A stretch of DNA of 64,000 nt from Pelagibacterium nitratireducens. Its GTDB lineage: Bacteria; Pseudomonadota; Alphaproteobacteria; Rhizobiales; Devosiaceae. The stretch is taken from assembly GCF_037044555.1 (NCBI RefSeq), contig NZ_CP146275.1, positions 1,840,501 through 1,904,500 on the forward strand. Direction: 5' to 3'. The notes under the pieces were generated by a model, which worked only from the letters and a program-made list of their open reading frames with translations, had not been told where the DNA came from and did not search any database. The position numbers and the translations under genes were made by a program. Positions 1 to 26,144 of the stretch are shown in pieces (positions within the stretch are counted from its first letter, which is position 1; every line of letters starts with the position of its first letter).

Positions 1-1
1 C

Positions 2-1432
2 CGTGCAGTTGCCGAACTTGAGAACATAAGCAGTCATCTGCCGATGTCTGGGAGCCAACTGGTGGATATGGTCATCAGTATACGCGACCTCGCCGAACTA
101 CGCCGCCGGTTGGGCTTGGAGTTCGGTCGATTCAATCACATCCTGCTCTCGTTCAATCAGCAGCCGTTGAGCAACGAGCCCGAACTTAGGCGTTTGTTTG
201 AAACGTGGAAGGACGATCTGCGCCCCACTATCGTCGACCGGATCCGCCGCCACTTTTTCGAGGACTACAAGAAGGGACATCCGCTCGATAGGTACGCCTC
301 GCTCCGCTCGCTCGACTTCGCAGAATTCCCCACCGAATGGATCCTAGAAAGGGAGGAAGTCACTCGAGACGAGGTAGCGCAACTCCTTGATAAGTGGCTC
401 AATCGGACTGTCGGCACCGACCTCGACATGGCGTTGGAGCCACTCGCAATGGTCCGCTCTAAGAACGGGAAGATGCTCCGCATTTTTTTGGACGAAGCCG
501 CTCCAATCGTTACCGCGTGGCTGATTAGGAATGGCGCGGTCGACGAAGTCTGGGGTGGCGGCGTCCAAGCGGTCATCAAGGTGCTCGAGCAGAAAGGCGT
601 GCTCGATTTCGAACCGATCGAAGCCAACGGCGAACTCCCGCTCTTGGCCGCAGCGGGCCTTTGGCCCCGAGCCATGCCGGCCTCGCTTGATCTCGGCCGA
701 CTTGGGCTTACGTCCGACGATCTGGCATCAGAAAAGAGGAAGAAGGAGGAACAGAAGGAAGCGGCTGCCAGGCAGCGTCGGTCCTTCACCTTCGCTGGCG
801 CGGATCTGGACACCGCAACTATCGATTTCGCGGATCAGCTAGTCCAGATCGCGGAGGCGGCGATGGAGGATGAGGAGTGGCTCCGCAGGTCGAGACGACG
901 GTTCAAGCTTGCTGAGATGCCTCCTGGCTCCAGTTCGTCGGGACCATCCGGAGCGGGTGGTGGGCAGCGGAAGCGCACGGAACGCATGTCGGACGACATC
1001 AAGGCAGCCATGGGTTTCGCCGGAGAGATTGTCGCAGCTCGCTTCCTTGCCGCCAAGCATGGGGTTCGCTTCGACGACGCGTGCTGGGTATCGCGCAATA
1101 GGGAACTCGTCCTTCGGGATGGAGAATTCGGCGACGACGGCCTCGGTTTTGACTTCCGCGTCCGGACCAAGGAGGTGGAGTGGCGATACGAAGTTAAGTC
1201 GAGCCTCGACGAGTCATTCGAGTTCGAATTTACACAGAACGAGATGCGGGTCGCAGCCGAGTGCGCGGCCGACGGCTCTCGTCGCTACAGGATACTTTAC
1301 GTGCCCTATGTCAACGATCCCACCCGCTGGCGAGTGATGGAACTCTCGAACCCGATGTCCGAGGCCGGACGCGTGCTTTTCCGTACGGTCGGCGCGGGCG
1401 CCACCAGGATGCGTTTCGATCCGACCGGCTGA
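2..1432 (+). CDS. NO VEIN (DUF3883) domain protein, 5'-truncated by window edge
   Basis: The reading frame is open from base 2, so the ATG at 44 is probably internal and the true start lies upstream of the window. The visible part is 476 residues. Counting from the Met at 44, residues 1-300 are charged and helical with no fold I recognise. A flexible Ser/Gly-rich linker (295-308) follows, then a C-terminal domain (about 320-460) matching DUF3883. It contains the GLGFDF segment (Asp370) and YEVKSS (Glu383, Lys385), the arrangement expected of a PD-(D/E)XK-like nuclease core. In bacteria DUF3883 often caps large ATPases or helicases in defence islands, for example behind sacsin-like GHKL domains; the missing N-terminus could be such a domain. 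A defence role is inferred from the neighbours. Confidence 0.75.
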   Translation, partial: RAVAELENISSHLPMSGSQLVDMVISIRDLAELRRRLGLEFGRFNHILLSFNQQPLSNEPELRRLFETWKDDLRPTIVDRIRRHFFEDYKKGHPLDRYASLRSLDFAEFPTEWILEREEVTRDEVAQLLDKWLNRTVGTDLDMALEPLAMVRSKNGKMLRIFLDEAAPIVTAWLIRNGAVDEVWGGGVQAVIKVLEQKGVLDFEPIEANGELPLLAAAGLWPRAMPASLDLGRLGLTSDDLASEKRKKEEQKEAAARQRRSFTFAGADLDTATIDFADQLVQIAEAAMEDEEWLRRSRRRFKLAEMPPGSSSSGPSGAGGGQRKRTERMSDDIKAAMGFAGEIVAARFLAAKHGVRFDDACWVSRNRELVLRDGEFGDDGLGFDFRVRTKEVEWRYEVKSSLDESFEFEFTQNEMRVAAECAADGSRRYRILYVPYVNDPTRWRVMELSNPMSEAGRVLFRTVGAGATRMRFDPTG

Positions 1433-1905
1433 TCGGAGTGATGCGTCACGCCGAACGACGCCTTTGACCAGGTCGGAAACGTGGCCGCCGCCGACTTCCT
1501 TACCGCAGCAGATGTCTGGCACTGCCCCACAACAGTTCGCGACCTCCGTTTGTGCATCGCAGGAAATATTTCCAGTCGGATCCGTCACCGATAGCAGATA
1601 GGGAAATTTTTGGCGATGACGGTATCGAAAGCCGCCCTTGAGTTGACACGACACCCGCTGCGAGCCTCCCCTTACATCTCTTCCAGCTTTTCGGCTGCTA
1701 TGAACTATGCAAGCAAAGGCCCCTGAAATGTATTGCTTTCCAGATTCCAAGAATTTTGCGACCCTACGAATCACTGTAACGTGGTGCGCCGATCTTTGGA
1801 CGAGTGGCCGAGGACTGCAGTTTTTGCGTAATTTCATTGGCCGCTGTTAAAATATTGTTTAATTGTGGCCTGTATACAATATAATTGAAAATACAGTGGG
1901 CGCGG
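1433..1905. other. Intergenic region upstream of the methyltransferase operon
   Basis: I see no convincing gene in these 473 bases. Open frames on the minus strand overlap the preceding gene and have no recognisable domain. The last 70 bases are strikingly AT-rich and carry a candidate promoter (see separate entry) and the 8-base palindrome TGTATACA at 1871-1878. Confidence 0.6.
1855..1885 (+). promoter_or_regulatory. Candidate sigma-70 promoter of the Z1 restriction-like operon
   Basis: A perfect -10 hexamer TATAAT lies at 1880-1885. The best -35-like hexamer is TTGTTT at 1855-1860, with a long 19-base spacer. The predicted start of transcription, near 1892, would leave a leader of about 14 bases before the ATG at 1906. 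The palindrome TGTATACA sits just upstream of the -10 and could be an operator. Confidence 0.35.
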
Positions 1906-3201
1906 ATGAAGTTTATCGATCTATTTGCCGGACTTGGTGGCTTTCATCAAGCATTGTCGCAGCGCGGAGCAGAGTGTGTATTCGCCTCGGAGTTGGATGA
2001 AGCTCTTGCTGACCTTTACGAGAAAAATTTTGGTATCCGCCCCGCAGGGGATATCCGCAAGGTCGACCTCAAAACCATTCCTGAACATGACCTCCTGTGT
2101 GCAGGCTTTCCGTGCCAGCCCTTTTCCAAGGCGGGGGATCAGTTGGGGCTTGAATGTCCTCAGTGGGGCGACCTGTTCGACTATGTCGTCGCGATACTTC
2201 GCCTGAAAAAGCCGCGGCATTTCATCATTGAAAATGTTCCCAATCTCGTTCGGCACAATGGCGGCGCCACCTGGAAGACCATTTGTTCGCGACTGACGAA
2301 GCTCGGCTACGATATCTCTTACGCCAAGCTATCTCCGCATATGTTTGGCGTTCCCCAGAAGCGAGAGCGCGCATTCATTGTCGGCGATCGCCAAGGGCTG
2401 CAGGGTTTCGATTGGCCAATCCCAGATCTGCTGCCGGAAGTGTCCATCAGCGATGTGCTGGATACAGAGCCGGCAGAGGCCCTCAATATCAGTGCTAATC
2501 ACGTTCGCTACCTGAATACATGGCAGCGGTTTTTGAAGGACTTTCCCGAGGACGAAGATCTGCCAAGTTTTCCGATATGGGGAATGGAGTTCGGCGCCGA
2601 TTATCCGCTTGAGGGAAAGACGCCGCACGAGCGCGGCTACAAGCTTCTCGGCCAATATCGTGGCGCCTTCGGGGTGCCGCTGGACGGCATGAGCCCAGAG
2701 GAGGTGCAAGCAAGCTTGCCCGGTTACGCGCAGACCAAACTGGCAGAGTTCCCCGACTGGAAAATAGACTTCATCGAGAAGAACCGCGCCCTCTACAAGC
2801 GACACAAGAAGATCATCGATCCTTTGCTTACTGAGCTCAAAACCTTTCCGCCGAGCTTCCAGAAGCTTGAATGGAACTGCAAGGGCAGCGAGCGGGACAT
2901 CTGGAAACACGTCATTCAGTTTCGGGCGAGCGGCATCAGGGTGAAGAAATCGACTACCGCGCCGTCGCTGATTGCGATGACGACAAGCCAGGTCCCAATC
3001 ATTGCGTGGGAACGGCGGTTCATGACGCCGCGCGAGTGCAGCAGACTTCAAAGCATGGGTGGCCTCAAGTATTTACCAGAAACCAAAGATGGAGCCTACA
3101 AAGCGTTCGGAAATGCTGTGAACGTCGACGTGGTTCGCCACATATTTGATGCGCTAACCAATCGTCGTTTTGGCGAAGCGGCGCTCATGGCGGCCGAGTG
3201 A
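1906..3201 (+). CDS. DNA (cytosine-5) methyltransferase
   Basis: This is a 431-residue C5-cytosine methyltransferase that transfers a methyl group from S-adenosylmethionine to cytosine in DNA. Motif I is FAGLGGF (7-13), motif IV GFPCQPFS has the catalytic Cys70, motif VI is ENV (109-111), motif VIII is QKRER (151-155), and motif X (KAFGNAV) is near the C-terminus. The region between about residues 200 and 350 should hold the target-recognition domain. A longer frame begins with TTG at 1885, but ATG 1906 is chosen because it begins directly with the family's MKFIDLFAGLGG-type N-terminus. The stop overlaps the start of the next gene, so the four genes 1906-7929 look co-transcribed. Within that module it is expected to protect or mark self DNA; the recognition sequence cannot be read here. 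Confidence 0.93.
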   Translation: MKFIDLFAGLGGFHQALSQRGAECVFASELDEALADLYEKNFGIRPAGDIRKVDLKTIPEHDLLCAGFPCQPFSKAGDQLGLECPQWGDLFDYVVAILRLKKPRHFIIENVPNLVRHNGGATWKTICSRLTKLGYDISYAKLSPHMFGVPQKRERAFIVGDRQGLQGFDWPIPDLLPEVSISDVLDTEPAEALNISANHVRYLNTWQRFLKDFPEDEDLPSFPIWGMEFGADYPLEGKTPHERGYKLLGQYRGAFGVPLDGMSPEEVQASLPGYAQTKLAEFPDWKIDFIEKNRALYKRHKKIIDPLLTELKTFPPSFQKLEWNCKGSERDIWKHVIQFRASGIRVKKSTTAPSLIAMTTSQVPIIAWERRFMTPRECSRLQSMGGLKYLPETKDGAYKAFGNAVNVDVVRHIFDALTNRRFGEAALMAAE

Positions 3202-4778
3202 TGGAGAAGGTAAGCACCGTCAACATCCGCCCAGGCGTAAATGTTCTTTCTGTGCTGCCGCACCTTAACTACAAGGCTTGGTTTGCCCTGGCCGAGTTCG
3301 TTGATAATTCGATCCAGAGTAGCCTCGATCACCGCAAACAGTTGATACGGGCCGAGGGTGAAGGTTTTCGGCTCCGCGTAGATATAGAATTCAGATCGAA
3401 CGAAAACACCATCGTCATTCGGGACAATGCGGCGGGGATCGCATCATCGGATTACAGCAGGGCATTTCGGCCCGCCGAAATTCCACCAAACGCGTCGGGA
3501 CTTTCGGAATTCGGCATGGGCATGAAGAGTGCCGCCTGCTGGTTTGCTCCGAACTGGAGCGTTCGTTCGACGGCCATTGGTGAGAGCATCGAGCGAACAG
3601 TCATCTTCGACATCGATCAGATCGTTCACGACAGCGTGGAGGAACTTCGCGTTATCTCGTCGGAGGTCGCTGCCGGGAAGCATTATACTGAGATCAGGCT
3701 TGAGCGAATTCGCAAGTTCCCGCGCGGAAAGACTATTCAGAAAATCAAGGACCATCTCGCCAGCATCTATCGGGTTTACCTACGAGACGGCGCGCTCGAA
3801 CTCTTTGTCGATGATGAGCCGATGCGCTACGATGAGCCGGCGATCCTGAAGGCACCGAGCTACCGCGACCCAAGCGGTCCGGTCGTGGAGTGGAAGAAGG
3901 ATATCGACATCAATCTCGGTGACGGCAGAACAGCCACCGGATTTGTCGCCATCCGGGAAACCGCTAATACTAGGCTGGCGGGGCTGGCGCTCTTCAGGCG
4001 CAAGCGTCTTGTGCTCGGCAGCGCCGATGAAGGCTACCGGCCCGAGGACATATTCGGGCGGCCCAACACTTACCCGTATCAGCGTCTCTTCGGTGAAATT
4101 CACCTGAAGGGATTTTCGGTCAGCCATACGAAGGACGGGGTAAAATGGGAGGAGAGCGAGGATGAATTCCTGCGGCAACTCCGAGCCGAACTCTCCAATG
4201 ATCAGTTGCCGTTGATCCAGCAGGCACGTGAGCACAGAACGAAAGCAGGCGCAAAAGCAGTCCGCCAGGAAGCCGCAGCGGCGCTTCAGGCAGCGGCAGC
4301 CAACCTGAACAACAAGAGTTTGTATGCGCAGGCTGAACTCGCGGCCCCGCCGTATAGTCCTCCCTTTCCTGCCGCAGTGCCGGACGTCGGCTCGGATACC
4401 GAACTGCCGGTATTGCCGTCCGAGGATGTGGAAGAAGCCGAGGTTCGCCTGCAGTTTCGCTCGGAACACTGGATTGTCAGGTTTGAATTGTCCTACGCGG
4501 ATGAGAAAGCCGACTGGCTGACCATCCGCGACCATCCTTCGATCACCGACCCGGAGCCACGGGAAGTGGGGGTGCGGATCTCAATGCTGCATCCCTTTAT
4601 GGCGCAATTCCCGACACTCGATACTGAAGGTTTCTCGGCGATTCTGAATGTCGCCGCCGCGATGGCGCTCGCGGAAGTGGCCGCCACGGAACTCGCCGAC
4701 CGGCATCCATCAGCCGTTCGCCGGTTCGCCAACGAGATACTTCGCAACCACATGTCGAAGAGTATAAGCGATGAATAG
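3201..4778 (+). CDS. MORC/MutL-like GHKL ATPase of a restriction-like system
   Basis: This 525-residue protein has a GHKL ATP-binding fold at its N-terminus. Motif N is ALAEFVDNS (Glu32, Asp35, Asn36), the Asp/Gly motif is IRDNAAGI (Asp75, Gly79), and the glycine-rich lid is FGMGMKSA (from 104). This pattern is that of MutL, Hsp90 and especially MORC-type ATPases, which clamp on DNA when ATP is bound. A helical stretch rich in Ala, Gln and Glu (about 345-385) may be a coiled coil. The ATG at 3201 overlaps the methyltransferase stop; a GTG one codon earlier is also possible. The 3' end overlaps the Z1 gene by 8 bases. In this gene set the ATPase is thought to couple DNA sensing to the helicase-like and nuclease partners; that role is inference. 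Confidence 0.85.
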   Translation: MEKVSTVNIRPGVNVLSVLPHLNYKAWFALAEFVDNSIQSSLDHRKQLIRAEGEGFRLRVDIEFRSNENTIVIRDNAAGIASSDYSRAFRPAEIPPNASGLSEFGMGMKSAACWFAPNWSVRSTAIGESIERTVIFDIDQIVHDSVEELRVISSEVAAGKHYTEIRLERIRKFPRGKTIQKIKDHLASIYRVYLRDGALELFVDDEPMRYDEPAILKAPSYRDPSGPVVEWKKDIDINLGDGRTATGFVAIRETANTRLAGLALFRRKRLVLGSADEGYRPEDIFGRPNTYPYQRLFGEIHLKGFSVSHTKDGVKWEESEDEFLRQLRAELSNDQLPLIQQAREHRTKAGAKAVRQEAAAALQAAAANLNNKSLYAQAELAAPPYSPPFPAAVPDVGSDTELPVLPSEDVEEAEVRLQFRSEHWIVRFELSYADEKADWLTIRDHPSITDPEPREVGVRISMLHPFMAQFPTLDTEGFSAILNVAAAMALAEVAATELADRHPSAVRRFANEILRNHMSKSISDE

Positions 4779-6963
4779 CACGATCCGCGTCATGCCCGCC
4801 CAAGCACCCGAGGGAAAACAATGGTCGCCGGTTCAAGGTTCGACATTCACACGGTTGCTCAACTCCAACAGCGCCCTCAGTTCGGATGAGAAAGAGCAAC
4901 TCACAACCGAAACATTCTCTATTCTTTCCGACTGCATCGACCCGTGTGCTCCTGCATCCACAAACACCGGCCTGGTCATCGGCTATGTCCAGAGCGGAAA
5001 GACTCTATCTTTCACCAGCCTCGCCGCGCTCGCACGCGACAACAAATACAGGGTTGTGGTGCTTCTTGCCGGTACGACGAACAACCTCGTCGAACAATCA
5101 TTCGATCGCCTGAGAAAAGACTTGGATATCGACGGCACCCGCGAGTGGAAGCTCTTCACGACCCAGCAGAAGGGTTTTCAATCCGGCGAGCTCGACCGGG
5201 TGAATATGGAACTCTCAGCCTGGCGCCGCGGCAGTCCTCGCGCGAAGACCATCATGATCATCGCGATGAAGCAGCACCACCATCTCGATCATCTGGCGAA
5301 GCTTCTTTCAAAGCTGGATCTTTCGGATGCGCCTACCCTCATTATCGATGATGAAGGCGATCAGGCCGGCATCAATACGAAGGCCAAGAAATCCGAGCAG
5401 AGCACGACATATGCGACGATTCTTGCATTACGCGCTCGTTTTCCTCACCATAGCTATGTCCTTTATACCGCGACCCCGCAGGCCCCGCTGCTGATTAGCC
5501 GAATTGATACGCTCTCGCCGGATTTTGGCAATGTGCTCACGCCCGGCTCCCAATATGTTGGCGGTCAGGATTTTTTCGGTCAGGGCGGTGCAGCCTACCT
5601 CAAGACCATCCTGGCTAGCGAGGTGCCTGACCGCCTCGATCCGCCGACGGAACCTCCACCCAGCCTTCTGGCTGCGTTCAGGGATTATTTCGTCGGCGTC
5701 GCCATCGGCCTTCTGGAGGGGGATGAACAGCGCGGCAAGAACCGCTCGATGATGATTCATCCTGCCGTCCCCAAGGATGAGCACCTGATGTATGTCCGGT
5801 GGGCGCGGCAAACCAAGGAGCAATGGTCGGGAATTCTGCAGGATGCCAGCCATCCCGAACATGATCGTCTGCTGGCCGATTTCGAGAAGACGGCGCAGGG
5901 CCTGCTCCCTACCTACAACACGAACTGCACATATGCTGATATCGCCGCCACACTCCTTGAAGCCATCGAGTCGACCGCGATCGGCGAGCTGAACACCCGC
6001 GAGAAATCCCGCATTCCCAGCATCGACTGGAAGGGTGAGTATAGCTGGATTCTGGTGGGCGGCATCGGTCTGGACCGTGGCTTTACGGTGGAAGGGCTGA
6101 CAGTCAGCTACATGCCGCGTTCGACCGGCGTGGGCAATGCCGACAATATTCAGCAAAGAGCGCGCTTTTTTGGCTATAAGCGCGGATATCTCGGGTTGTG
6201 CCGCATCTATCTGACAACCGAGAATATCGACGCGTTCACCGATTATGTGTCACACGAGGAATCCATCCGCGGCTCCATCAGCCATCACCTGAAATCCGGC
6301 GGTACGCTCAAAGAGTGGGGCCGCACCTATTTCCTGGATCAGAACCTCAAGCCGACGCGCTCGTCGGTTATCTTGCTGGAGATGTACCAGTCACGCGGCA
6401 AAGGAGGATGGATCACGCCGGACCATCCCCATGATGACCCCGAGATATTGGCTACCAACCGGCAAGTAGCCGATGACATTTTGACTGACTTCACCTTGGG
6501 TCCCTATGCCGAGGCCGGCTGGAACGCAAAGCAGGCTGTGCCGGCCTTCAGCGACGCGCTGAGCCTTGCCGACATGATGCCTTACATCGGACGACTTCGC
6601 TACAAGTGGCCGGACGACAGCCTGCAGCACTCCTCTATCCTGCTCATGCTGGGCCGTCTGGCGAGCGAACAGCCTGATATGACCTGCAGCCTGTATGGGT
6701 TCTCCGGCCCCTGGTCAGGGGTGCCGTCAATTCGTACGTTGAACGCCGATCGCCCAGCCAAGATCAAGAACCTTTTCCAAGGCTCGAACGCGGCGACAAA
6801 CTACCCGGGAGCGCGGGCTCTCGTGTCATTGGAAACCATAACGTTCCAGCTTCATCGCTATGACCTGCAAACCGCCGACAAGAAGCGCACCCTCAAGGAT
6901 GTGCCTGTCCTTGCCGTCCATTTCCCCGATCATCTCATCGAACGCGTCTGGGTGGAACGCTGA
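4771..6963 (+). CDS. Z1-domain helicase-like ATPase
   Basis: This 730-residue protein is a superfamily-2-like NTPase with a Z1 domain. Walker A is GYVQSGKT (71-78) and the Walker B-type motif is DDEGD (193-197), followed by YTATPQAP, a motif III-like segment. The Z1 region (about 425-475) begins at GGIGLDRGFTVEGL and has an arginine-finger-like stretch, QQRARFFGYKRGY. Z1 proteins are known almost only from the operon type with a GHKL ATPase, a C5 methyltransferase and a DUF4420 nuclease, exactly as here. It is likely the DNA-translocating or remodelling engine of the module. The start overlaps the ATPase gene by 8 bases, implying translational coupling. I see no truncation. Confidence 0.9.
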   Translation: MNSTIRVMPAQAPEGKQWSPVQGSTFTRLLNSNSALSSDEKEQLTTETFSILSDCIDPCAPASTNTGLVIGYVQSGKTLSFTSLAALARDNKYRVVVLLAGTTNNLVEQSFDRLRKDLDIDGTREWKLFTTQQKGFQSGELDRVNMELSAWRRGSPRAKTIMIIAMKQHHHLDHLAKLLSKLDLSDAPTLIIDDEGDQAGINTKAKKSEQSTTYATILALRARFPHHSYVLYTATPQAPLLISRIDTLSPDFGNVLTPGSQYVGGQDFFGQGGAAYLKTILASEVPDRLDPPTEPPPSLLAAFRDYFVGVAIGLLEGDEQRGKNRSMMIHPAVPKDEHLMYVRWARQTKEQWSGILQDASHPEHDRLLADFEKTAQGLLPTYNTNCTYADIAATLLEAIESTAIGELNTREKSRIPSIDWKGEYSWILVGGIGLDRGFTVEGLTVSYMPRSTGVGNADNIQQRARFFGYKRGYLGLCRIYLTTENIDAFTDYVSHEESIRGSISHHLKSGGTLKEWGRTYFLDQNLKPTRSSVILLEMYQSRGKGGWITPDHPHDDPEILATNRQVADDILTDFTLGPYAEAGWNAKQAVPAFSDALSLADMMPYIGRLRYKWPDDSLQHSSILLMLGRLASEQPDMTCSLYGFSGPWSGVPSIRTLNADRPAKIKNLFQGSNAATNYPGARALVSLETITFQLHRYDLQTADKKRTLKDVPVLAVHFPDHLIERVWVER

Positions 6964-6969
6964 TGCGCG

Positions 6970-7929
6970 ATGCTTCTTGATCTATATTCTGGTCTTCTGC
7001 AGGGTGCGTGCTCGAACCGCCTGCATTTATATGGCGCGCGGGCAGGTACGGGCCGCAATTTGTGGCTCGCGATCACCAAGGAGGGCTTTCCCTGCCTTGT
7101 CATCCGTGCCAGCGAGAATGACTTACGCGCCGACATCGCGCTTCGTTCGATCGATGTTGAATTCTCAAGGCGGTGCGAGATCATCAGCGATGAAGCGGGA
7201 GCGTTGGTGGCAGGCACTTACACCGTCGTCAGACTGAATGATGCGGACCCCGACACCGTCCGTCTTTTTCTGCGCCTGCTCGAAGAGTCTTTTTGCCGCG
7301 ATGCAGGTGTTTTGGACAACCGTCAAATAGGCGACAAGATACTTGAGATTGCTGAGTTGTTTCGCCGACTCGATGGATCGACCGGGGATCTTGTTGGCCT
7401 GTGGGGTGAACTCCATATCATCGCTAATTCAAGCACTGTGAATTCCGCGGTGCGGTCATGGTGCTCGCACAAGGAGGCGAAATTCGACTTTGTCTGTCCT
7501 GACTTCGTGCTGGAGGTGAAGACCACGCTGAGGCCTGTGCGCCAGCACCGCTTTTCAATTGAGCAGTTGCGGCCGGCCGGCGATTTCAATGTGTTCATCG
7601 CTTCGCTCCAGGTCATCGAAGTGCCCTCAGGACAAACAGTCCCGCAGATGATCGAGGCCGTGATAGATCAGATCAAGGAGGGAGGCGTTCGCGCTGCGTT
7701 CCTTCATCGTTGTGTCGCCAAGGGCGGCCGTGACCTTTATCGCAGCACTCTGTGCCTGCAGTGTTTTCCCGGCGGCAAGTCGCTCAAATTGCTCAGGGCT
7801 GCTGATATCCCTGTCCCGTCCGTCGCCGCAGGGGAGCCGATATCTTTTGTTCGCTTCGATGTGGACTTGTCGGCAGTACCGTCGGTGATGCGCGATATCG
7901 TCGATGAAGTATTAACGTTCCCTCAGTAA
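6970..7929 (+). CDS. PD-(D/E)XK motif protein (DUF4420), predicted nuclease
   Basis: This is a 319-residue protein, the last gene of the methyltransferase-ATPase-Z1 operon, starting 6 bases after the Z1 stop. It carries a PD-(D/E)XK signature: Glu147 in GLWGELH, Asp173/Asp178 in KFDFVCPDF, and the ELK-type LEVKTT (Glu182, Lys184). DUF4420 proteins are the usual nuclease partner of Z1 helicases. The protein is therefore the probable effector that cuts unmodified or invading DNA, with the ATPase and Z1 protein controlling it. The catalytic residues appear intact, so the system could be active. An ATG at 6963 stops after five codons and is not the start. Confidence 0.85.
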   Translation: MLLDLYSGLLQGACSNRLHLYGARAGTGRNLWLAITKEGFPCLVIRASENDLRADIALRSIDVEFSRRCEIISDEAGALVAGTYTVVRLNDADPDTVRLFLRLLEESFCRDAGVLDNRQIGDKILEIAELFRRLDGSTGDLVGLWGELHIIANSSTVNSAVRSWCSHKEAKFDFVCPDFVLEVKTTLRPVRQHRFSIEQLRPAGDFNVFIASLQVIEVPSGQTVPQMIEAVIDQIKEGGVRAAFLHRCVAKGGRDLYRSTLCLQCFPGGKSLKLLRAADIPVPSVAAGEPISFVRFDVDLSAVPSVMRDIVDEVLTFPQ

Positions 7930-11159: not shown

Positions 11160-14100
11160 CTACTCCTCACCGCCAGCAGGCAAGGTTCCCTCGACCGACT
11201 TTTTCTTCGGAGTCTTGAAACCTAGCGCTTTCCGAATTACGGCGACTCTCTCGGCTCGCTCCTCGTTTTCGTCGGGATTTAGATTATTGACCAGGTCGAT
11301 CATTGCGTCGTAGCTATCCTTCGACGCGCGCTTCAGTGCCCCTTTAAAGTCCGAGCTCCTCTCTTGGATGAAGTCTGTTCCGATCTGAGAACATGCGGAT
11401 ATGAGAGCCCTCAGGAAGTGATCGATAGCGGCTTCGGGCTGTTCTTCGAGGGGTAGGTCTTCGGCCAGTTTGGGAAAGTAGATCAAGAAGGCCTCGGTCC
11501 CTCCAGGCGTCAGATCAGTTCGCCTGATACTTTCCAGAACGCGTGATGCATCCCTCTTCCGAGTCGCCGTGTGTATGGTGCTCTGCAATGCCGCCCAGTC
11601 TTCGGGATTGAGGTTGAACTCCCGTTCTCCCGCCATGCTGTCGAGAGCAACTCGCCAGAACGCGTCACCAAATGTTTGGGGCGGCATCTTGATCGACGCG
11701 GCTCGCTGGCGAAGGACCAGCAGATCCACTGTTTCGTTTTCCTCACTCAACGCTCTGAGCCAGAACTCCTTGTCCAGGGATTTCAGCTTCGCATCAAGGC
11801 GCGCCGTCAGGGTATGAAGCGAACACGGCGAATCTAGTTTTCCGACATCGTCAAACAGCTTTTTCGAATAGGAGAGAAGCTGCTCATCATCGAAAACGTC
11901 ATTGATGTCTGCTTCCGTTTGGAGTTCTGCGATCCGGCACAAGAATTGCCGCGAAATCTCAGGTCCCAGTTTGGTGCTAAGGATGGAGTAGTTGGTAAAC
12001 AGCTCAGCGAGCCCACTGATTTCTAGTTCATTCGACGCAATGGCAGCTCGAAGGACGGAAAGAGGGAACTTACCGTCGGCTTTGTCTGTTCGCACCATCT
12101 CCAGCCAAAATCCAAGTCGGCGAGAACGCGAAAGGTGATGCGCAATCCTTTCAATGACATTTTTCGACGTTTCCCCCTCATCGAATAGCGACTTGTACCA
12201 TTGAGTTTCAGTAGCCATGCCGCCGAACACCGGATGAGGCGATCCGACCGAGAGAGGCTTTATGCCATTTGCGCTCAACAGCAGCCACAGAGCATCTCCG
12301 ACTACGTCTTCGTCGCCGCCTGATTTCGACTGCCCATGCGCGTAATGCAGCAATGTTCCGTCGGCGCTGATCTGCTGTATGGCCTTTTGTGTTCCGGGAG
12401 TGCCTGGAGACCGACGATTCAGAAGGCAAAGGCTTTCAAGCAATGATGCCGGATTCTCAACATCCACTGATGCCAGGTGTTGAGTTATGGCCTTGGCAAT
12501 CGGCTCACGATTTGCCGCCTGTAAGCCGGAATTGAGCTCTTGGAGGCATTGGAGAACCGTCGTGTGATCTTCCTCAACATACTGCACCAGTTCCGCCACG
12601 ACCAATGCAGCTGCTGGTTTACGGGCAAGGTCTGTATATCGATAATTGGTGCCGACAAGCTGCCGGCATACGGCGATGGCGAAGTCCTTTTCATGGTGCA
12701 GCTTGATGGAGCGCCAGAATTGCTGTCCAGCTTCCGCGCCTTCAGCAGACACCAAGACATCGAGTAGCCTCAACACGTGGACAGCCCAACGGTCGCCTGC
12801 CTCGAAGAGATCGTGTTCGCCATCGTCATCGTTCGCCTCGCCTTGGGCGGCGAACTTGTCCAGCACATTCAACGCCGCTTCAGCCGCTGCTAGTCTATTT
12901 TTCGGCTGTTGACGTGCAACAATACGAAGCAGTCCTTCATTGTTCTCCACCTCAACTGAGTCCAATTTCCCCAGATTAGGAATTGATTCTGCGAATGCCT
13001 GCCAGACTTCGTCTGCCGCCGGTCCCTTTAGCTCGAGCGCTTCAACGTTAAGGGCCGCTTTCGAGAAGGCGGTCGTGTCGCTTTGCGCAATCTGCTCGAT
13101 TTCCGGTGCCGCGTGGATTTGAAAGATCCGATCGAATCCTTGGATGTTTTTGAGCGTCGCGAGGCCATCTGGACGGTTCTGACGGAGGCCGTTAGCGATT
13201 CTGTCGCCCAACAGGACCTCTTCTGCGTGCTCAAGATCGACATTGAAGGCAAGAGCGGCAAGGTGTTGCAGCCAGTCAGGCTCATCGGCGATGGATCGAA
13301 ACTCCTTTTTGATCAGGTCTTCACTGAGCAGCGCTTCTGGTGAGGTCTCGATCTCGCCCCTGAAGAGCACGTACAGCGCGATGGATGGAGCCGGTATTCT
13401 TCCGCGCCATTGCGCCCAATAGGTGCCGAACTCGTTGACGAAGCCGATGATCATGCGCGGCGTCGCGTGAATAAGCTCCTCGCGCATATACAACTGCAGC
13501 AGGCGGAAAATTTTGTTTCTCGCGCGGTCTGTCAGCAGATCATCTGATTGATGTTTGCCATCCTCGCTTTGGCCATCGATCGCTTGCCTCAAAACTTGGT
13601 CGAGGTATCCGCCCCAGTGTGATCCTACCGGCGGCGAAACTTTCAAAATTCGACTGAATGTCTTGTTAAAGATATCCCCATGGGCGAAGCGCGCTGGTGC
13701 GCCTTTATCTTCATCTTCCTGACCACCGTTCAGGGCTACGGCTCTCGCCAGCTGAGTCTTTTCGTTGAATGCATTGGCGACGTATGTGCGATCATAGGGC
13801 ACAACCGCAATGACGCGTGTCGACTCGCCGTCGGATTTGGGGTCACTGATCGCGAAGACGGACCGAACTTCCGACCAAATCAAAGGGACCGACTTCATTG
13901 GTAGCCGGTCGATGTTGTCCATGACAACGATCACCCTCTGCCCCTTCGCTTGAACCTTCAAAAGAATTTGTCGGAAAACCCGATAGAATTCGACGGTCGT
14001 TGGATCTTCGTCCCGTATCTCCTGTTTGACCGAATCATGCTTGGACTCCCGCGAAAAGATGCTCCACGAGTCAGATACGATCTTCTGCCACGGTGGAGTG

Positions 14101-14858
14101 TCGCCAACGGCTTCCTTCCATGAGGTCGGCGACACATCTGCTTTCCGCTCGGAAACGGTACGATCGCTGGCGTTTTTTGAGGCGGGGAAAGGCGAGCGGA
14201 CCGTCTTGAGCGCTGGCGCGACAAAGACTTTCCATGCTGGCCGCAAAAGCTTGCACCAGCACAGCCGGACGAAAGCGATCCCGAACGGTGTGGCTGCCGC
14301 GCACGTCAGCACAATCAAAATCAAAGTCGGAAACGACTGACCAAACGCAAACGGTTCTTCGTGGTTTTGAAAAGCGAGAGGGCTGGCCCAGAAATACGCA
14401 AGAGGCAGAAAAGGTAGAAACACAACCAGGAGAAGACCGAGCAACGAGTACGTTTTGTCGTTGGTGGTGTCTACCTCTCTAATTTTGTTCCGTATGACCT
14501 TCTGTTGATTCTTCACAAACTGCGCTGTCGCCAACCCTTCAGTCTTCGTCCAGGTAAGCAAGCACTCTAAGAATGCGCGTTTGAAATCGTCAGTCTGATG
14601 CGCCCAGAGGTCAAACGTAAAGATATGATATTTGGGTTTTTTGCCCTTGGGCGTCAGCAAATTTCTGGCCATTTCAATAACTGACGACTTTCCTGCCCCC
14701 CAGTCGCCTTCAAGCCCGATTGCACCGTCTGTTTCAGAGTCCAACTGGGCGATGCTCTCAGCCAAAGCTTTGGCCGTACGGGTATGGCCCTGGCCGTCAA
14801 AGGCATCGTCCGTCGCGGGACTATCGAAAATAATCTTTACAGTGTGTGCTTCGCTCAT
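11160..14858 (-). CDS. KAP-family P-loop NTPase with membrane segments
   Basis: This 1232-residue protein has Walker A GDWGAGKS (51-58) and a Walker B-like strand VIVVMDNIDRLP near residue 325. Between them are two strongly hydrophobic segments (about 115-150 and 170-195), the classic KAP layout in which membrane helices are inserted into the P-loop domain. The NTPase should be cytoplasmic and held at the inner membrane. The remaining 800 residues are helical, repeat-like and Ala/Leu-rich, without a domain I recognise, and could be a scaffold or sensor. KAP NTPases include phage-exclusion proteins. ATG 14858 is chosen over a TTG at 14870 because a GGGGGC stretch precedes it. A perfect inverted repeat lies about 55 bases upstream. 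Confidence 0.85.
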   Translation of the reverse strand: MSEAHTVKIIFDSPATDDAFDGQGHTRTAKALAESIAQLDSETDGAIGLEGDWGAGKSSVIEMARNLLTPKGKKPKYHIFTFDLWAHQTDDFKRAFLECLLTWTKTEGLATAQFVKNQQKVIRNKIREVDTTNDKTYSLLGLLLVVFLPFLPLAYFWASPLAFQNHEEPFAFGQSFPTLILIVLTCAAATPFGIAFVRLCWCKLLRPAWKVFVAPALKTVRSPFPASKNASDRTVSERKADVSPTSWKEAVGDTPPWQKIVSDSWSIFSRESKHDSVKQEIRDEDPTTVEFYRVFRQILLKVQAKGQRVIVVMDNIDRLPMKSVPLIWSEVRSVFAISDPKSDGESTRVIAVVPYDRTYVANAFNEKTQLARAVALNGGQEDEDKGAPARFAHGDIFNKTFSRILKVSPPVGSHWGGYLDQVLRQAIDGQSEDGKHQSDDLLTDRARNKIFRLLQLYMREELIHATPRMIIGFVNEFGTYWAQWRGRIPAPSIALYVLFRGEIETSPEALLSEDLIKKEFRSIADEPDWLQHLAALAFNVDLEHAEEVLLGDRIANGLRQNRPDGLATLKNIQGFDRIFQIHAAPEIEQIAQSDTTAFSKAALNVEALELKGPAADEVWQAFAESIPNLGKLDSVEVENNEGLLRIVARQQPKNRLAAAEAALNVLDKFAAQGEANDDDGEHDLFEAGDRWAVHVLRLLDVLVSAEGAEAGQQFWRSIKLHHEKDFAIAVCRQLVGTNYRYTDLARKPAAALVVAELVQYVEEDHTTVLQCLQELNSGLQAANREPIAKAITQHLASVDVENPASLLESLCLLNRRSPGTPGTQKAIQQISADGTLLHYAHGQSKSGGDEDVVGDALWLLLSANGIKPLSVGSPHPVFGGMATETQWYKSLFDEGETSKNVIERIAHHLSRSRRLGFWLEMVRTDKADGKFPLSVLRAAIASNELEISGLAELFTNYSILSTKLGPEISRQFLCRIAELQTEADINDVFDDEQLLSYSKKLFDDVGKLDSPCSLHTLTARLDAKLKSLDKEFWLRALSEENETVDLLVLRQRAASIKMPPQTFGDAFWRVALDSMAGEREFNLNPEDWAALQSTIHTATRKRDASRVLESIRRTDLTPGGTEAFLIYFPKLAEDLPLEEQPEAAIDHFLRALISACSQIGTDFIQERSSDFKGALKRASKDSYDAMIDLVNNLNPDENEERAERVAVIRKALGFKTPKKKSVEGTLPAGGEE

Positions 14859-14910
14859 ACGTGCCCCCAAACGGCCGGTTCGCGGTTGCTATTTTGTTCC
14901 TTTAAGTAAT

Positions 14911-15011: not shown

Positions 15012-15040
15012 AAATGGCAATTTTTCCCTCAAAATGGCAA
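15012..15040. repeat. Direct repeats AAATGGCAA, 20 bases apart
   Basis: AAATGGCAA occurs at 15012-15020 and 15032-15040, two helical turns apart, in the gap between the island and the nrdJ stop. The spacing would let one protein bind two sites on one DNA face, for example recombinase arm sites or a tandem operator. Function is unknown and the motif is short. Confidence 0.3.
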
Positions 15041-15080
15041 CGAGTGAGCGGACTCCTACAGCAACTACTGATTTCCGGGA

Positions 15081-18000
15081 TCAACTACACCCAGTCGTGC
15101 TTCCACACGTGTCGCACTTCAAGCACGTCCCATTCCGCACCAGCGTGAAGTTCTGGCACTCGGAACACGCTTCCCCCACATAGCCCTTCATCTGGGCCTC
15201 CAGCCGCAGGGTTGTGGTGTCCTTGGCCTGGGCTTCGACCAGTTTGGTGGCGGCGGCTTCGGCCTCTGCTTCCGGGTCGGTCTTGAGCGCCGTGCCCTGT
15301 TTCAAAGCCGTGACGGTCTGGGACTGCATGGCCTGGACGGGGTTGGCGAGTTTGAGGTCGGAGGAGGCGACGAGCATCAGGGTTTTGTCCTTGACGCGGC
15401 CGCGGGTCATGCCGCGGGAGACGAAATTGTCGGCCGGGACCGGGGCGGGGGCCGAGCGGTCTTTGACCTGATTGTCTTCCGAGACACCCTGGCCGATCGA
15501 GGTGGCGCCGGCGTCGGGGGTGACGTGGGCCAGATCGGTGCGGTCGAGGTAGGAAATGGCCAGCTCGCGGAACACGTAATCGAGGATCGATGTGGCGTTC
15601 TTGATGTGGTCATTGCCCATGACGAGACCGGCGGGCTCGAAGCGGGTGAAGGTGAAGGCCTCGACGAATTCATCGAGCGGCACGCCATATTGCAGGCCGA
15701 TCGAAATCGCGATGGCGAAATTGTTCATCATGGCGCGGAAGGCAGCGCCTTCCTTGTGCATGTCGATGAAGATTTCGCCCAGACGTCCGTCACCATATTC
15801 GCCGGTGTGGACATAGACCTTGTGGCCGCCAACAATCGCCTTCTGGGTGTAACCCTTGCGGCGGTCGGGCATGCGCTCACGCTCACGATAACGCTCGCGT
15901 TCGACGATGCGCTCGACGATCTTTTCCGCCACGGCCGGGATACGCTCGGAAAGCGCGGCGGCGGCGATTTCGGCCACATCGTCCTCGTCTTCGTCCTCAT
16001 CGGCTAGCAGCGAGGAGTTGAGCGGCTGGGAAAGCTTGGAGCCATCGCGATAGAGCGCGTTGGCCTTGAGGGCCAGCTTCCAGGACAGCATGTAGGCCTG
16101 CTTGGAATCCTCGACGGTCGCATCATTGGCCATGTTGATGGTCTTGGAGATCGCGCCCGAAATGAAGGGCTGAGCCGCGGCCATCATGCGGATGTGGGAT
16201 TCGACCGAGAGATACCGCTTGCCGATCTTGCCGCAGGGGGTGGCGCAATCGAAAACGGGCAGGTGCTCGTCCTTGAGGAACGGCGCGCCTTCAAGGGTCA
16301 TGGCACCGCACACATGGATGTTGGCGGCCTCGATGTCCTTTTTGGCAAAGCCAAGGAAGGGCAGGAGCTCGAAGGTTGGATCGGTCAATTGCGCGTCGGT
16401 GACGCCCAAAGATTTCAGGAAATCAGCGCCCAGCGACCATTGGTTGAAGACGAACTTTATGTCGAAGGCCGACTTCATGGCCGCGTTGAGCGCGGCGATC
16501 TTGTCCTCGGGGAAGCCCTTGGCGGCCAGGGTGACCGGGTTGATGCCCGGGGCCTGGTTCATGTTGCCATGGCCCACGGCATAGGCTTCGATCTCGGCGA
16601 TCTGATCTTCCGAATAGCCCAGCGAGCGCAGGGCGGCGGGGACGGCGCGGTTGATGATCTTGAAATAACCGCCACCGGCGAGCTTCTTGAACTTGACCAG
16701 CGCGAAATCGGGTTCGATGCCGGTTGTGTCGCAATCCATGACCAGACCGATGGTGCCGGTCGGGGCGATGACGGAAACCTGGGCGTTGCGATAGCCGTGC
16801 TTTTCACCCAGTTCGAGCGCCAGATCCCAGGCGGCGGTCGCGCGGTCGATCAGGTTGCGATCGGGGCACGAGGCGTGGTCGAGCGGGACGGGCGTGATCG
16901 AAAGGTTCTCGTAGCCATCGGCCTTGCCATGAGCGGCATTGCGGTGATTGCGGATGACGCGCAGCATGTGCTTGGCGTTGCGCTTGTAGTCCTTGAACGC
17001 ACCGAGCTCGGAGGCGATTTCGGCGGACGTCGCGTAGGACACGCCGGTCATGATGGCGGTCAAAGCACCGGCGATGGCGCGGCCTTCGTCGCTGTCATAG
17101 GGAATGCCCGAGGTCATCAGCAGGCCGCCGATGTTGGCGTAGCCCAGACCGAGGGTGCGGTAGAGATAGGAGCGCTCTGCAATGGCCTTGGAGGGGAACT
17201 GGGCCATCATCACCGAGACTTCGAGGACGAGGGTCCACAGGCGCACGGTGTGCTCGTAATCGCCGGTTGCGAACACGCCATCCTTGCCGCGATAGGGCAG
17301 CAGGTTAATCGAGGCGAGGTTACAGGCGGTATCGTCGAGGAACATATATTCCGAGCACGGGTTCGATGCGTTGATCGGACCGGCTTCGGGGGAGGTGTGC
17401 CACTCGTTGATGGTGGTGTGGTACTGGATGCCGGGATCGGCGGACGCCCAGGCGGCATAGCCGACCTGTTCCCACAGATCGCGGGCCTTCAAAGTCTTTG
17501 TGACCTTGCCGGACTGACGCGCGGTGAGGTTCCAGTCGCCATCGTCTTCGACGGCGCGCAGGAAATCATCGGTGACGCGGACCGAGTTGTTCGAGTTCTG
17601 GCCCGAAACGGTCAGATAGGCTTCGGAATCCCAATCGGTGTCGTAGATGGGAAATTCGATGTCGGTGTAGCCCTGCTTGGCGAACTGGATGACGCGGAAG
17701 ATGTAGTTTTCCGGGACCAGAGCCTTCTTGGCGGCCTTGACCTCGCGCTTGAGAGCCGGGTTCTTGTTGGGATCGAAGCAATCATCGGCGTGGCCGTCGC
17801 AGTTCACAGCGGCCTTCATGATGAGCTTGAGGTGTTTGGAGACAGTCTTGGAGCCGGTGACCAGAGCGGCGACCTTCTGCTCTTCCTTGACCTTCCAGTT
17901 GATGTATTCCTCGATATCGGGGTGATCGATGTCGATCACCACCATCTTGGCGGCGCGGCGCGTGGTGCCGCCCGACTTGATGGCGCCGGCAGCGCGGTCG

Positions 18001-18782
18001 CCGATCTTGAGAAAGCTCATCAGGCCCGACGACTTGCCGCCGCCCGAGAGCTTTTCGCCCGAGCCGCGCAGGGCCGAGAAATTGGTGCCGGTGCCCGAGC
18101 CGTATTTGAACAGACGCGCTTCGCGGACCCAGAGGTCCATGATGCCGTTCTCGTTGACCAGATCGTCATCGACCGACTGGATGAAGCAGGCGTGGGGCTG
18201 GGGATGCTCGTAGGCCGATTTGGACTGGACGAGCTTGCCGGTGAAGGGGTCGACATAGAAATGGCCCTGGCCGGGGCCGTCGATGCCATAGGCCCAGTGC
18301 AGGCCGGTGTTGAACCATTGCGGGGAATTGGGGGCAACGCGCTGGGTGGCGAGCATGTAGCACAGCTCGTCATAGAAGGTGCGGGCGTCGTCTTCGGAGG
18401 TGAAATAGCCACCCTTCCAGCCCCAATAAGTCCAGGTGCCGGCGAGGCGGTCAAAGACCTGACGCGAATCCATTTCCGAGCCGTAGCGCTCGTCTTCGGG
18501 CAGCTTGGCGAGCGCCTTTTCGTCGGGGACCGAACGCCACAGCCAGGAGGGGACGTCGTTTTCCTCGACCTTCTTGAGGACCTTGGCCACACCGGCCTTG
18601 CGGAAATATTTCTGCGCGATGATGTCGGCGGCGACCTGGCTCCAGAGCGCGGGGACGGCGATGTCCTCGAGCTTGAAGACCACAGACCCGTCCGGGTTGC
18701 GGATTTCGCTCGTGGCCGAGCGGAATTCGATGCCGGCATAGGCCGATTGCCCAGCCGTAGTGAAGCGCCGTTCTATCTGCAT
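15081..18782 (-). CDS. nrdJ: Vitamin B12-dependent ribonucleotide reductase (class II)
   Basis: This 1233-residue adenosylcobalamin-dependent reductase makes deoxyribonucleotides from ribonucleotides without needing oxygen or a separate radical subunit. The catalytic barrel shows [10 protein letters not shown] and [15 protein letters not shown], with the active-site cysteines. An acidic and then basic insert (Asp/Glu followed by Arg-rich, about residues 925-980) precedes the final domain. The C-terminus has CSEC, CLKC and CGSTTGC, the redox and zinc-type cysteines that recharge the active site. The length is normal for alphaproteobacterial NrdJ. It stands alone; the upstream region carries a tandem NrdR-box pair (18937-18983), so repression by NrdR-ATP is expected. 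No B12 riboswitch was seen. This is the first clearly core gene after the island. Confidence 0.97.
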
Positions 18783-19326
18783 TCGTCTTGTATCCCCAAA
18801 CTAGGTGCCGCTCTGCTGGCTGATCGCCCCTGCAAGCGTCTTGTCGTTGCCGACAATGTCGATTTGATCGGGTCATGAATCGGCCCGTTGATGTGACTGT
18901 TTTCGATTCTTTGGCAAACCGTCAATCACACGAAATCGACTATCCCTTGTGCCTATGGAATGTGCATTCGCTAAATATAGTGGTTTTTAGTGTGGATAGC
19001 GAGGAAAACGTGCAAAAAGCTGCACTGGTTTCATTGGGGTGTCACAAAGCAAGCGTGAGCATAGGTTAATGAAGCGTTGTCTCGGAAAGCGCGGTTAAGT
19101 GATGGAAAAACCTCACTCTCTGGCCGCGCCGGGGGGTCGCTTTAGACTCATAAACGCCTGTCAAGCGGCTTTTTTGGACCTCGATCGCGGTTTTTTGTTG
19201 GCTGGGGACATGCACACCATGTTGTGTGAACAACGGGACCGAAATCGACTGTAGCACTCTCTAGGCTGGCCCGGTCATGTGTGCTAAGCCCAAGCCAACT
19301 CATCGTGACGCGTGAAGGTACCGGAC
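18783..19326. other. Divergent intergenic region between nrdJ and NDUFA12
   Basis: This 544-base region separates two divergent genes. It carries the NrdR-box pair (separate entry) about 155 bases before nrdJ. The part 19000-19300 holds T-runs (19168-19173 and 19190-19195) but no clear hairpin, so I cannot claim a small RNA. Short open frames on both strands look random. Confidence 0.6.
18937..18983. promoter_or_regulatory. Tandem NrdR boxes upstream of nrdJ
   Basis: Box 2 (18968-18983) is TCGCTAAATATAGTGG, 12 of 16 bases matching the NrdR consensus acaCwAtATaTwGtgt. Box 1 (18937-18952) is CGACTATCCCTTGTGC, 10 of 16, with both conserved half-site cores ACTAT and TTGTG. Their starts are exactly 31 bases apart, the three-turn spacing typical of NrdR box pairs. 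NrdR represses ribonucleotide reductase genes when dATP/ATP is high. Confidence 0.8.
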
Positions 19327-19725
19327 GTGGCAAACAGCGGCTTTAAACAGTTCGTCTTCGAAATTTTCGGCTGGTGGAACAAGCAGACCCTCTCCACCCG
19401 CATTTTCACCGCCCTGCGCGGGGTGAAGGTGGGCGAGGACGCGTTCGGGAACGTCTATTACGAAGGCAAGAAGGATGGCCGGCGCTGGGTCGTCTATAAT
19501 GGCTATGCGGAAGCGTCGGCGATTCCGGCGGGCTGGCATGGCTGGATGCACCGGCGCACCGATGTGCCGCCGTCCAAATCGGACTACAAGCCGCACGAAT
19601 GGGAAAAGGCCCATATCCCCAACATGACCGGCACGGCGCTGGCCTATCGCCCGGACGGGTCGATCCTGACACCGCAATCGCGTCCGCGGGTGACGGGCGA
19701 CTACGACGCCTGGTCGCCGGAATAG
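19327..19725 (+). CDS. NADH:ubiquinone oxidoreductase subunit NDUFA12 family
   Basis: This 132-residue protein belongs to the NDUFA12/B17.2 family, an accessory subunit of respiratory complex I found in alphaproteobacteria and mitochondria. Typical features are the N-terminal WWNKQTLSTR stretch, GNVYYEGK, RRWVVYNG, IPAGWHGWMH and the DVPPS segment. The start is taken as GTG 19327 because GAAGG lies 9 bases upstream and translation begins MANSGFKQF. GTG 19312 would add five residues without a ribosome-binding site. It is followed after 15 bases by the DUF2155 gene, a conserved pairing in this bacterial group, probably one transcript. It should sit on the peripheral arm of complex I at the cytoplasmic side of the inner membrane. 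Confidence 0.93.
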   Translation: MANSGFKQFVFEIFGWWNKQTLSTRIFTALRGVKVGEDAFGNVYYEGKKDGRRWVVYNGYAEASAIPAGWHGWMHRRTDVPPSKSDYKPHEWEKAHIPNMTGTALAYRPDGSILTPQSRPRVTGDYDAWSPE

Positions 19726-19740
19726 GGCGGTTCTGGCTGC

Positions 19741-20160
19741 GTGAACCCTCGGGGATTTAGAAAAGCCGCAAGCCGCCTGGCGCTTGCCATGGTCATTGCC
19801 ATGGGGGCGGGGAGCGCCCATGCGCAGGCCATCTCCAATCCTGTGGCGGTGTTTACCGGGCTCGACAAGATCACCGGGCGGATCACGATTTTCGATGTCT
19901 ATATCGACGAGACGGTGCAGTTCGGATCGCTGCAGCTGACGCCGCGAGTCTGTTATTCCCGGCCGACAACCGAAGCCCAGAGCGTTACCGCCTTCGTGCA
20001 GGTGGACGAGGTTTCGTTGCAGGCGACAATGGAGCGGGTGTTTTCGGGCTGGATGTTTGCCGACTCGCCGGCGCTCAATGCGATCGACAACGCCGTTTAC
20101 GATGTCTGGCTGATCGATTGCCGCCAGACATCGGACGTGCCGCCACCCGACCAGCGCTAG
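19741..20160 (+). CDS. DUF2155 domain secreted protein
   Basis: This 139-residue protein has an N-terminal signal peptide: basic MNPRGFRK, a hydrophobic core, and a likely cut after SAHAQA. The mature part has the DUF2155 pattern: LDKITGRITIFDVYIDETVQFGSL, then a cysteine in RVCYSRP and FSGWMFADSPALNA, ending with a second cysteine in YDVWLIDC. The two cysteines may form a disulfide in the periplasm. The function of DUF2155 is not established. It starts with GTG, 15 bases after NDUFA12, and ends facing aat; a large inverted repeat lies in between. Confidence 0.9.
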   Translation: MNPRGFRKAASRLALAMVIAMGAGSAHAQAISNPVAVFTGLDKITGRITIFDVYIDETVQFGSLQLTPRVCYSRPTTEAQSVTAFVQVDEVSLQATMERVFSGWMFADSPALNAIDNAVYDVWLIDCRQTSDVPPPDQR

Positions 20161-20171
20161 GTTGCATGGAC

Positions 20172-20290
20172 AGTTCGGTGATGGTGAGCCGAAAATGGCA
20201 GTTTTCTGCGCTTCCGGTGCTCACGTACCCAAATGTACGCTCCGCTCCGGTTCTCGAAAACTGCCATTTTCGGCTCACCCTGACCGAACT
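20172..20290. repeat. Long palindromic repeat element (REP/REPIN-like)
   Basis: Two 35-base arms, 20172-20206 and 20256-20290, are inverted copies with three mismatches (positions 9-11 of the arm). Each contains GGTGAGCCGAAAATGGCAG or its complement. The 49-base centre is itself imperfectly self-complementary, around GTGCTCACGTAC and GTACGCTCCGCTCC. The element fills the gap between the convergent genes DUF2155 and aat, so it can act as a two-way transcription stop. Its nested symmetry suggests a dispersed non-autonomous repeat family. Confidence 0.8.
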
Positions 20291-20301
20291 CTCCACACAA
20301 C

Positions 20302-20934
20302 CTACCCCGTCTTTTCCCACGCGTAGAAGTCGCCGTCGATATTGAGGGCGCCCGAGAGGCGGATTTCGTAGATGGCGCGGGGGATCTCGATGCCGCCCAG
20401 AGACGCCAGATGGTCGGTGATGAACTGGGTATCGAGAAGCGCATAGCCGCCCGCATTGAGCCGGTCGACGAGGTGGGCGAGGGCGATCTTGGACGCATCG
20501 GTGCGCCGGTGGAACATGGATTCGCCAAAGAACGCGCCGCCGATGGCCAGGCCATAAAGGCCGCCAACCAGGGCTTCGCCATCATAGACCTCGACGGTGT
20601 GGCAATAGCCCATGGCAAACAACTCGCCATAGAGTGAGCGAATGGTGGGGTTGATCCAGGTTGATTGCCGGTCACTGCCTGCCGTGGCGCAGCCTTCGAT
20701 GACACCGGAAAAGTCGCGATCAACGACTACGGAAAAGCCGCTTTTTCGCATGGACTTGCGCAGGCTTTTTGACGCCCTGAATCCATCGAGCGGCAACACG
20801 CCGCGCATCTGGGGGCTGACCCAGAAAATGTCCGGATCGTCGGCGCTTTCCGACATCGGGAATATGCCGGCGCGATAGGCGCGCAGGATCAACTCGGGCG
20901 TGAGTTCGATATCGAAGGGGTCGTTCCGGGTCAT
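20302..20934 (-). CDS. aat: Leucyl/phenylalanyl-tRNA--protein transferase
   Basis: This 210-residue N-end-rule enzyme transfers Leu or Phe from charged tRNA to proteins with N-terminal Lys or Arg, marking them for ClpAP degradation in the cytoplasm. The family hallmarks are present: LRAYRAGIFPMSE, FWVSPQMRGVLPLDGF, TWINPTIRSLY, HTVEVYDGE, GLYGLAIGGAFFGESMF and LLDTQF. The frame is open 27 codons further upstream, but ATG 20934 gives the usual short N-terminus (MTRNDPFDIELTPELILRAY). It lies downstream of accC on the same strand, with a gap of about 130 bases. Confidence 0.95.
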   Translation of the reverse strand: MTRNDPFDIELTPELILRAYRAGIFPMSESADDPDIFWVSPQMRGVLPLDGFRASKSLRKSMRKSGFSVVVDRDFSGVIEGCATAGSDRQSTWINPTIRSLYGELFAMGYCHTVEVYDGEALVGGLYGLAIGGAFFGESMFHRRTDASKIALAHLVDRLNAGGYALLDTQFITDHLASLGGIEIPRAIYEIRLSGALNIDGDFYAWEKTG

Positions 20935-21063
20935 CGCAAAACTGAAAAAGCGGTCGTGTGCAGGGCGTACCACGATCTGCACACGGTTTGTTTCGGTCGC
21001 GCTTTCGAACCGCAAACGTGCGGGCCTCTTTTTGCTGAAAGCACTCCGGCGGCCCGCCTTTCG

Positions 21064-22410
21064 TTATTCCTTGTTGGCTTCGAGAAACTTCTCGAGCCAG
21101 TGGATGTCGTAATTTCCCGCCTGAATGTCGGGCTCCTTGATGAGCCGGCGGAACAGGGGCAGGGTCGTCTTGACGCCGTCGACGATAAATTCGTCCAGCG
21201 CCCGATTGAGGCGCTGCAGGCATTCGGGGCGCGTCCGGCCGTGGACGATCAGCTTGCCGATCAGGCTGTCGTAATAGGGCGGGATGTTGTAGCCCTGATA
21301 AACGGCGGCATCGACGCGCACCCCCACGCCACCTGCGGGGTGATAATAGGTGATGCGACCCGGCGACGGTGCAAAGGTCTGGGGGTCTTCGGCGTTGATG
21401 CGCACTTCGATGGCATGGCCATGGAACGCCACGTCTTCCTGCTTGAGCGAAAGCGGCTCGCCGGCGGCAACGCGGATCTGCTCATAGACGATGTCGAAAT
21501 TGGTGATGCGCTCGGTGACCGGGTGCTCGACCTGCAGGCGGGTGTTCATTTCGATGAAATAGAACTCGCCGTTTTCGTAGAGGAACTCGATGGTGCCGGC
21601 GCCTGAATATTTGAGCTTGCGCATGGCGGCGGCGCAAATTTCACCGATTTCGGTCTGCTCTGCCATAGGAACGGTCGGCGCCGAAGCCTCTTCCCACACT
21701 TTCTGGTGGCGGCGTTGGAGCGAGCAATCGCGGGTGCCAAGATGGACGGCATTGCCCCGGCCGTCGCCGATGACCTGAACCTCGATGTGACGGGGCTTTT
21801 CGAGGTATTTTTCCAGGTAGACGGAATCGTCGCCGAAATTGGCCTTGGCCTCGCGGCGTGCCGTCGAGAAGGCGATGGCGAGGTCGGCCTGGGTCTTGGC
21901 GACCTTCATGCCCTTGCCGCCGCCGCCCGATGCGGCCTTGATGAGAACCGGATAGCCGATTTCGGCGGCAGACTTCTGCGCTTCGGCCTCGGTGGTCACG
22001 GCGCCAGCCGAACCGGGAACGCAAGGGATGCCCAGTTCAAGCGCGGTTTTTTTGGCTTCGATCTTGTCGCCCATGATCTCGATATGGTGGGCGGACGGGC
22101 CGATAAAGGCGATCTTGTGCTCTTCGAGGATGCGGGCGAAACGAGCATTTTCCGACAGGAAGCCATAGCCGGGATGGACGGCTTCGGCGCCGGTGATTTC
22201 GCAGGCGGCCAGGATGGAGGGGATGTTGAGATAGCTGTCGCGGGCGGAGTTGGGACCAACGCACACGCTTTCGTCGGCAAGGCGCACATGCATGGCATTG
22301 GCGTCGGCCTGGGAATGGATGGCAACCGTCTGGATGCCGAGTTCCTTGCAGGCGCGCAGGATGCGCAGGGCGATTTCGCCGCGGTTGGCTATGAGGACCT
22401 TGGAAAACAT
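21064..22410 (-). CDS. accC: Acetyl-CoA carboxylase, biotin carboxylase subunit
   Basis: This 448-residue ATP-grasp enzyme carboxylates biotin on AccB with bicarbonate and ATP, the first half of malonyl-CoA synthesis for fatty acids. Visible motifs are the N-terminal KVLIANRGEIALRI, the glycine-rich ATP loop SGGGGKGMK, KYLEKPRHIEVQV and the catalytic EMNTRLQVEHPVTE. Length is normal. It follows accB by 9 bases on the same strand, so the two are co-transcribed and the holoenzyme components are made together. Confidence 0.98.
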   Translation of the reverse strand: MFSKVLIANRGEIALRILRACKELGIQTVAIHSQADANAMHVRLADESVCVGPNSARDSYLNIPSILAACEITGAEAVHPGYGFLSENARFARILEEHKIAFIGPSAHHIEIMGDKIEAKKTALELGIPCVPGSAGAVTTEAEAQKSAAEIGYPVLIKAASGGGGKGMKVAKTQADLAIAFSTARREAKANFGDDSVYLEKYLEKPRHIEVQVIGDGRGNAVHLGTRDCSLQRRHQKVWEEASAPTVPMAEQTEIGEICAAAMRKLKYSGAGTIEFLYENGEFYFIEMNTRLQVEHPVTERITNFDIVYEQIRVAAGEPLSLKQEDVAFHGHAIEVRINAEDPQTFAPSPGRITYYHPAGGVGVRVDAAVYQGYNIPPYYDSLIGKLIVHGRTRPECLQRLNRALDEFIVDGVKTTLPLFRRLIKEPDIQAGNYDIHWLEKFLEANKE

Positions 22411-22419
22411 GGGCCTGCC

Positions 22420-22914
22420 TTACTCGATGACGACGAGGGGTTCACCGTATTCGACCGGCGAGGCGTCATCGACCAGAATGCGGGTGATGGTGCCCGATTT
22501 GTGCGCCGGAATCTGGTTCATGGTCTTCATGGCTTCGATGATGAGGACCGTCTGGCCCTCGGAGACCTTGGTGCCCACTTCGACGAAGGCCCTGGCGCCC
22601 GGTTCTGGCGCCAGATAGGCGGTGCCGACCATGGGCGATGTCAGGGTGTTGGGGCTGGCAGCGAGGTCTTCGGGCGATGCGGCGGCGGGCGTTGCAGCAG
22701 CCGAGGCTGCAGGTGCGGCCGGCGCTGCCGGGGCGGCTGGAGCCTGCTGGGCGTAGCCTGGGGCCGCGACCTGAACGACTTCCTTGGCAAAGGTGCGCGT
22801 TACGCGGATGCGGAAGTCATCCTGCTCAAGTTCGATTTCCGCCAGATTGGCATCATTGACCAGTTCGGCGATGGTGCGGATGAGGTCCTGATCGACCTGC
22901 GAGATCTTTGCCAT
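22420..22914 (-). CDS. accB: Acetyl-CoA carboxylase, biotin carboxyl carrier protein
   Basis: This 164-residue carrier has an N-terminal helical domain (1-45), a flexible Ala/Pro linker (about 50-90) and a C-terminal biotinyl domain. The biotinylated lysine is Lys130 in EAMKTMNQI, where the usual motif is EAMKMMN; the Thr is a mild variation after the key Lys. It lies between aroQ and accC in one direction (aroQ-accB-accC), a conserved order, with a 37-base gap to aroQ. Confidence 0.97.
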
Positions 22915-22951
22915 TGTTATCGTGTCTCCACCGACCCGTTTGGGGTCTTTT

Positions 22952-23878: not shown

Positions 23879-23880
23879 TG

Positions 23881-26135: not shown

Positions 26136-26144
26136 CGGGATATA

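Follow-up and report, generated by a model that had tools for sequence, protein, structure and literature searches.

Operons of this kind are already known: a 2008 study reportedly predicted them and proposed DNA looping. Among the closest known systems are one that Miller, Stern, and Burstein put forward as putative in 2022 (PMC9523054) and Mza, which the same paper cites as mzaABCDE, with MzaA a sigma factor. CglI, of the CglI/NgoAVII type of restriction-modification, has according to its description three genes, none of which encodes a GHKL protein, and its nuclease is a PLD enzyme with a B3-like DNA-binding domain. In this study, we describe an apparently intact four-gene operon, predicted to act in DNA defence, in Pelagibacterium nitratireducens (contig NZ_CP146275.1, positions 1,840,501 to 1,904,500; this 64,000-nucleotide stretch is the window, and its numbering is used below). 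The operon occupies 1906..7929 (+):

1906..3201, + strand: C5 cytosine DNA methyltransferase, 431 aa (PF00145 9.3e-68, TIGR00675 1.3e-65)
3198..4778, + strand: MORC-type GHKL-S5 ATPase, 526 aa, with an unclassified C-terminal domain (~405-526)
4771..6963, + strand: Z1 ATPase (PF10593 5.5e-34; PADLOC Helicase_II 9.1e-44)
6970..7929, + strand: DUF4420 PD-(D/E)XK nuclease, 319 aa (PF14390 1.8e-19)

The sequence-only reading had proposed this very module with all key motifs intact; the methyltransferase, Z1 and DUF4420 profile matches, the latter two being part of the Pfam check it had suggested, confirm its composition together with the GHKL/S5 residues, and the motifs are borne out as well. The methyltransferase, for which a TTG at 1885 is an alternative upstream start, carries motifs I (DLFAGLGG), IV (GFPCQ), VI (ENV), VIII (QKRER), IX and X (GNAV). 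The Z1 protein contains GYVQSGKT, DDEGD, TATPQ and QQRARFFG (at 461), and matches DEAD only below cut-off (E 0.0045). Conservation over 41 rows predicts E147, D173, E182 and K184 as the catalytic set of the DUF4420 protein, whose structure model (pLDDT 92.9) matches type II restriction endonucleases over residues 138-313 with a middling fold match.

The 526-aa ATPase has the GHKL motifs and the S5 lysine expected of the MORC family (E33, D36, N37, D76, G80, G106, G108, K110 and K312 do not vary across 46 rows), and it shows the fold of the MORC/SMCHD1 ATPase module. This MORC-type motor resembles human gene-silencing proteins; however, compared with eukaryotic MORC2/3/4 and SMCHD1, Pfam finds in it only the ATPase GHKL domain, and neither a CW zinc finger nor a hinge is matched at E<=0.01. 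The MORC link drawn from the sequence alone therefore stands for motifs and fold, but not as closest kinship to eukaryotic MORCs: profile A8, built on the GHKL proteins of the compact branch to which the operon belongs, retrieves no MORC chain at E<=1; its top match is HtpG (0.0033), followed by MutL (0.009). With profile A9, from the Mza-like GHKL proteins of the branch bearing AIPR (MzaE), human MORC2 is the best match in solved structures (6.6e-13) and MutL ranks below it, and because of this the AIPR branch is, at the level of sequence profiles, the better lead to the MORC ancestor. A motif that reads GLALFRRKRLV here occurs in GHKL proteins of the compact (47/52) and AIPR (34/37) types and in none of the 18 of a third type, against a background of 37/611 other open reading frames of >=400 aa, a set that includes AIPR-type GHKL proteins. 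A 2021 paper (PMC8011034) describes bacterial MORCs as still poorly understood.

It is unlikely that the operon is simply a form of Mza. Its gene order is the same, it matches MzaB, MzaC and MzaD weakly, and AIPR-bearing Mza-like relatives are common among the other loci (the AIPR cluster is found in 29 of 63). The scores, however, lie far below the curated NCBIfam cut-offs (18 of 850, 121 of 1500 and 29 of 420 bits for MzaB, MzaC and MzaD, respectively), and PADLOC returns only MzaB (0.0018) and MzaC (9.2e-29), with no MzaD or MzaE match; for comparison, the proteins of one other locus, L101, reach 5.7e-78 and 2e-145 with these two models. Moreover, AIPR was found neither in the examined flanks of 53 compact loci, some of which end at contig ends, nor by profile search (PF10592) anywhere in the genome that carries the operon, and a methyltransferase of the operon's type is present in 44 of the 53 compact copies (the other nine lack it). 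Membership of the CglI type was also considered and rejected: the operon nuclease belongs by Pfam to DUF4420 and not to the PLD family with a B3 domain, and the operon has a MORC.

With regard to function, a type IV-like role, in which phage DNA with foreign cytosine modifications is attacked while the methyltransferase protects or competes, seems improbable: the rows for DpnI, SwaI and EcoRV lie no more than 1 Z apart, and the methyltransferase is so tightly linked and so well conserved (mean identity 50% across 32 loci) that self-protection suits it better. More doubtful again is the view that, instead of defending against phages, the operon serves the Tn7-like transposon or prophage that bears it, either through addiction triggered by loss of the methyltransferase or by keeping competing elements out. 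Carriers vary among copies, and no homologue of this element's TnsA, TnsB, TnsC or TniQ was detected in the flanks of 115 other loci scored (phmmer, 1e-5); in any case, addiction and defence are not mutually exclusive. That the operon is silent or decaying cargo, or an epigenetic regulator in which the methyltransferase alone matters, we regard as the least probable alternative to a defence operon.

The carrier is a 44,262-bp Tn7-like transposon (-29201..15060), and the window opens with 15 kb of its right part (1-15060). Its 25-bp terminal inverted repeats differ by one mismatch, and sites resembling GTTGCC[AT] (<=1 mismatch) number four on the left and three on the right, counting the copy in the terminal repeat. 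The element lies just beyond the 3' end of nrdJ with GCAAC on both sides; a genome of the same genus has the empty site with a single copy. TnsA (PF08722 4.2e-6), TnsB (PF09299 7.9e-7), TnsC (PF05621 1.9e-13) and TniQ (PF06527 1.1e-13) exceed cut-offs, while the TnsB rve domain (4.4e-5) falls below. The right end and other cargo include:

-3967..1432 (L002 12534-17933), + strand: 1799-aa protein, sacsin-like start (under cut-off), NOV_C end; PADLOC TmtA, 1503 bits
8827..11061, - strand: tyrosine-recombinase-like protein, 744 aa, weak (Phage_integrase E 0.1, below cut-off; HxxR...Y by eye)
11160..14870, - strand: KAP-family P-loop NTPase, 1236 aa, right-end cargo (PF07693 2.2e-14)
15036..15060, - strand: right terminal inverted repeat; ends TATAGGAGTCCGCTCACTCGTTGCC / TGTAGGAGTCCGCTCACTCGTTGCC, with repeated inner sites
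15061..15065, no strand: 5-bp target-site duplication (GCAAC), right copy, separating the element from the end of nrdJ

The 1799-aa gene, whose 3' part fills positions 1..1432 of the window, adjoins the MORC operon and possibly encodes a second GHKL protein. Upstream of it, on the opposite strand, lies an AAA ATPase (L002 10360-12177) whose best PADLOC match is AriA, with Old and GajA next. The transposon also carries a second, accessory imuA-imuB-dnaE2 set (L002 4624-10173; genome 1828623-1834172), and a search of 20 relatives turned up copies of this dnaE2 (94-96% identity) in just 2, one being partial. A 101-aa reading frame (8278-8583, - strand) with RNAIAHG, a HEPN-like RxxxxH by eye, may be a fragment; neither Pfam nor NCBIfam gives a match at E<=0.01. 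In four viral contigs (L135, L136, L138 and L141) the predicted prophage contig stops exactly at the DUF4420 stop codon, so that the operon there may belong to the host and lie at the edge where the prophage was trimmed; all four have a serine recombinase gene upstream of the methyltransferase.

What is added here is the compact branch, the finding that it falls short of the NCBIfam cut-offs for Mza, nuclease exchange and the Tn7-like carrier, which suggests one route by which such operons may move. Among the papers listed from the literature searched, which lacked most subscription papers, none treated the biochemistry of bacterial MORCs from operons like this one or reported experiments on the compact form; one paper in that literature mentions DUF4420. 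Since it appears intact, is 6 kb long, is made up of four genes with a conserved methyltransferase and is free of an AIPR partner, the operon offers a small and convenient system in which to test the DNA-looping proposal. Should it behave as proposed, bacteria would allow methylation, the ATPase activity of a MORC and DNA cleavage to be followed together, which would bear on MORC2 and SMCHD1.
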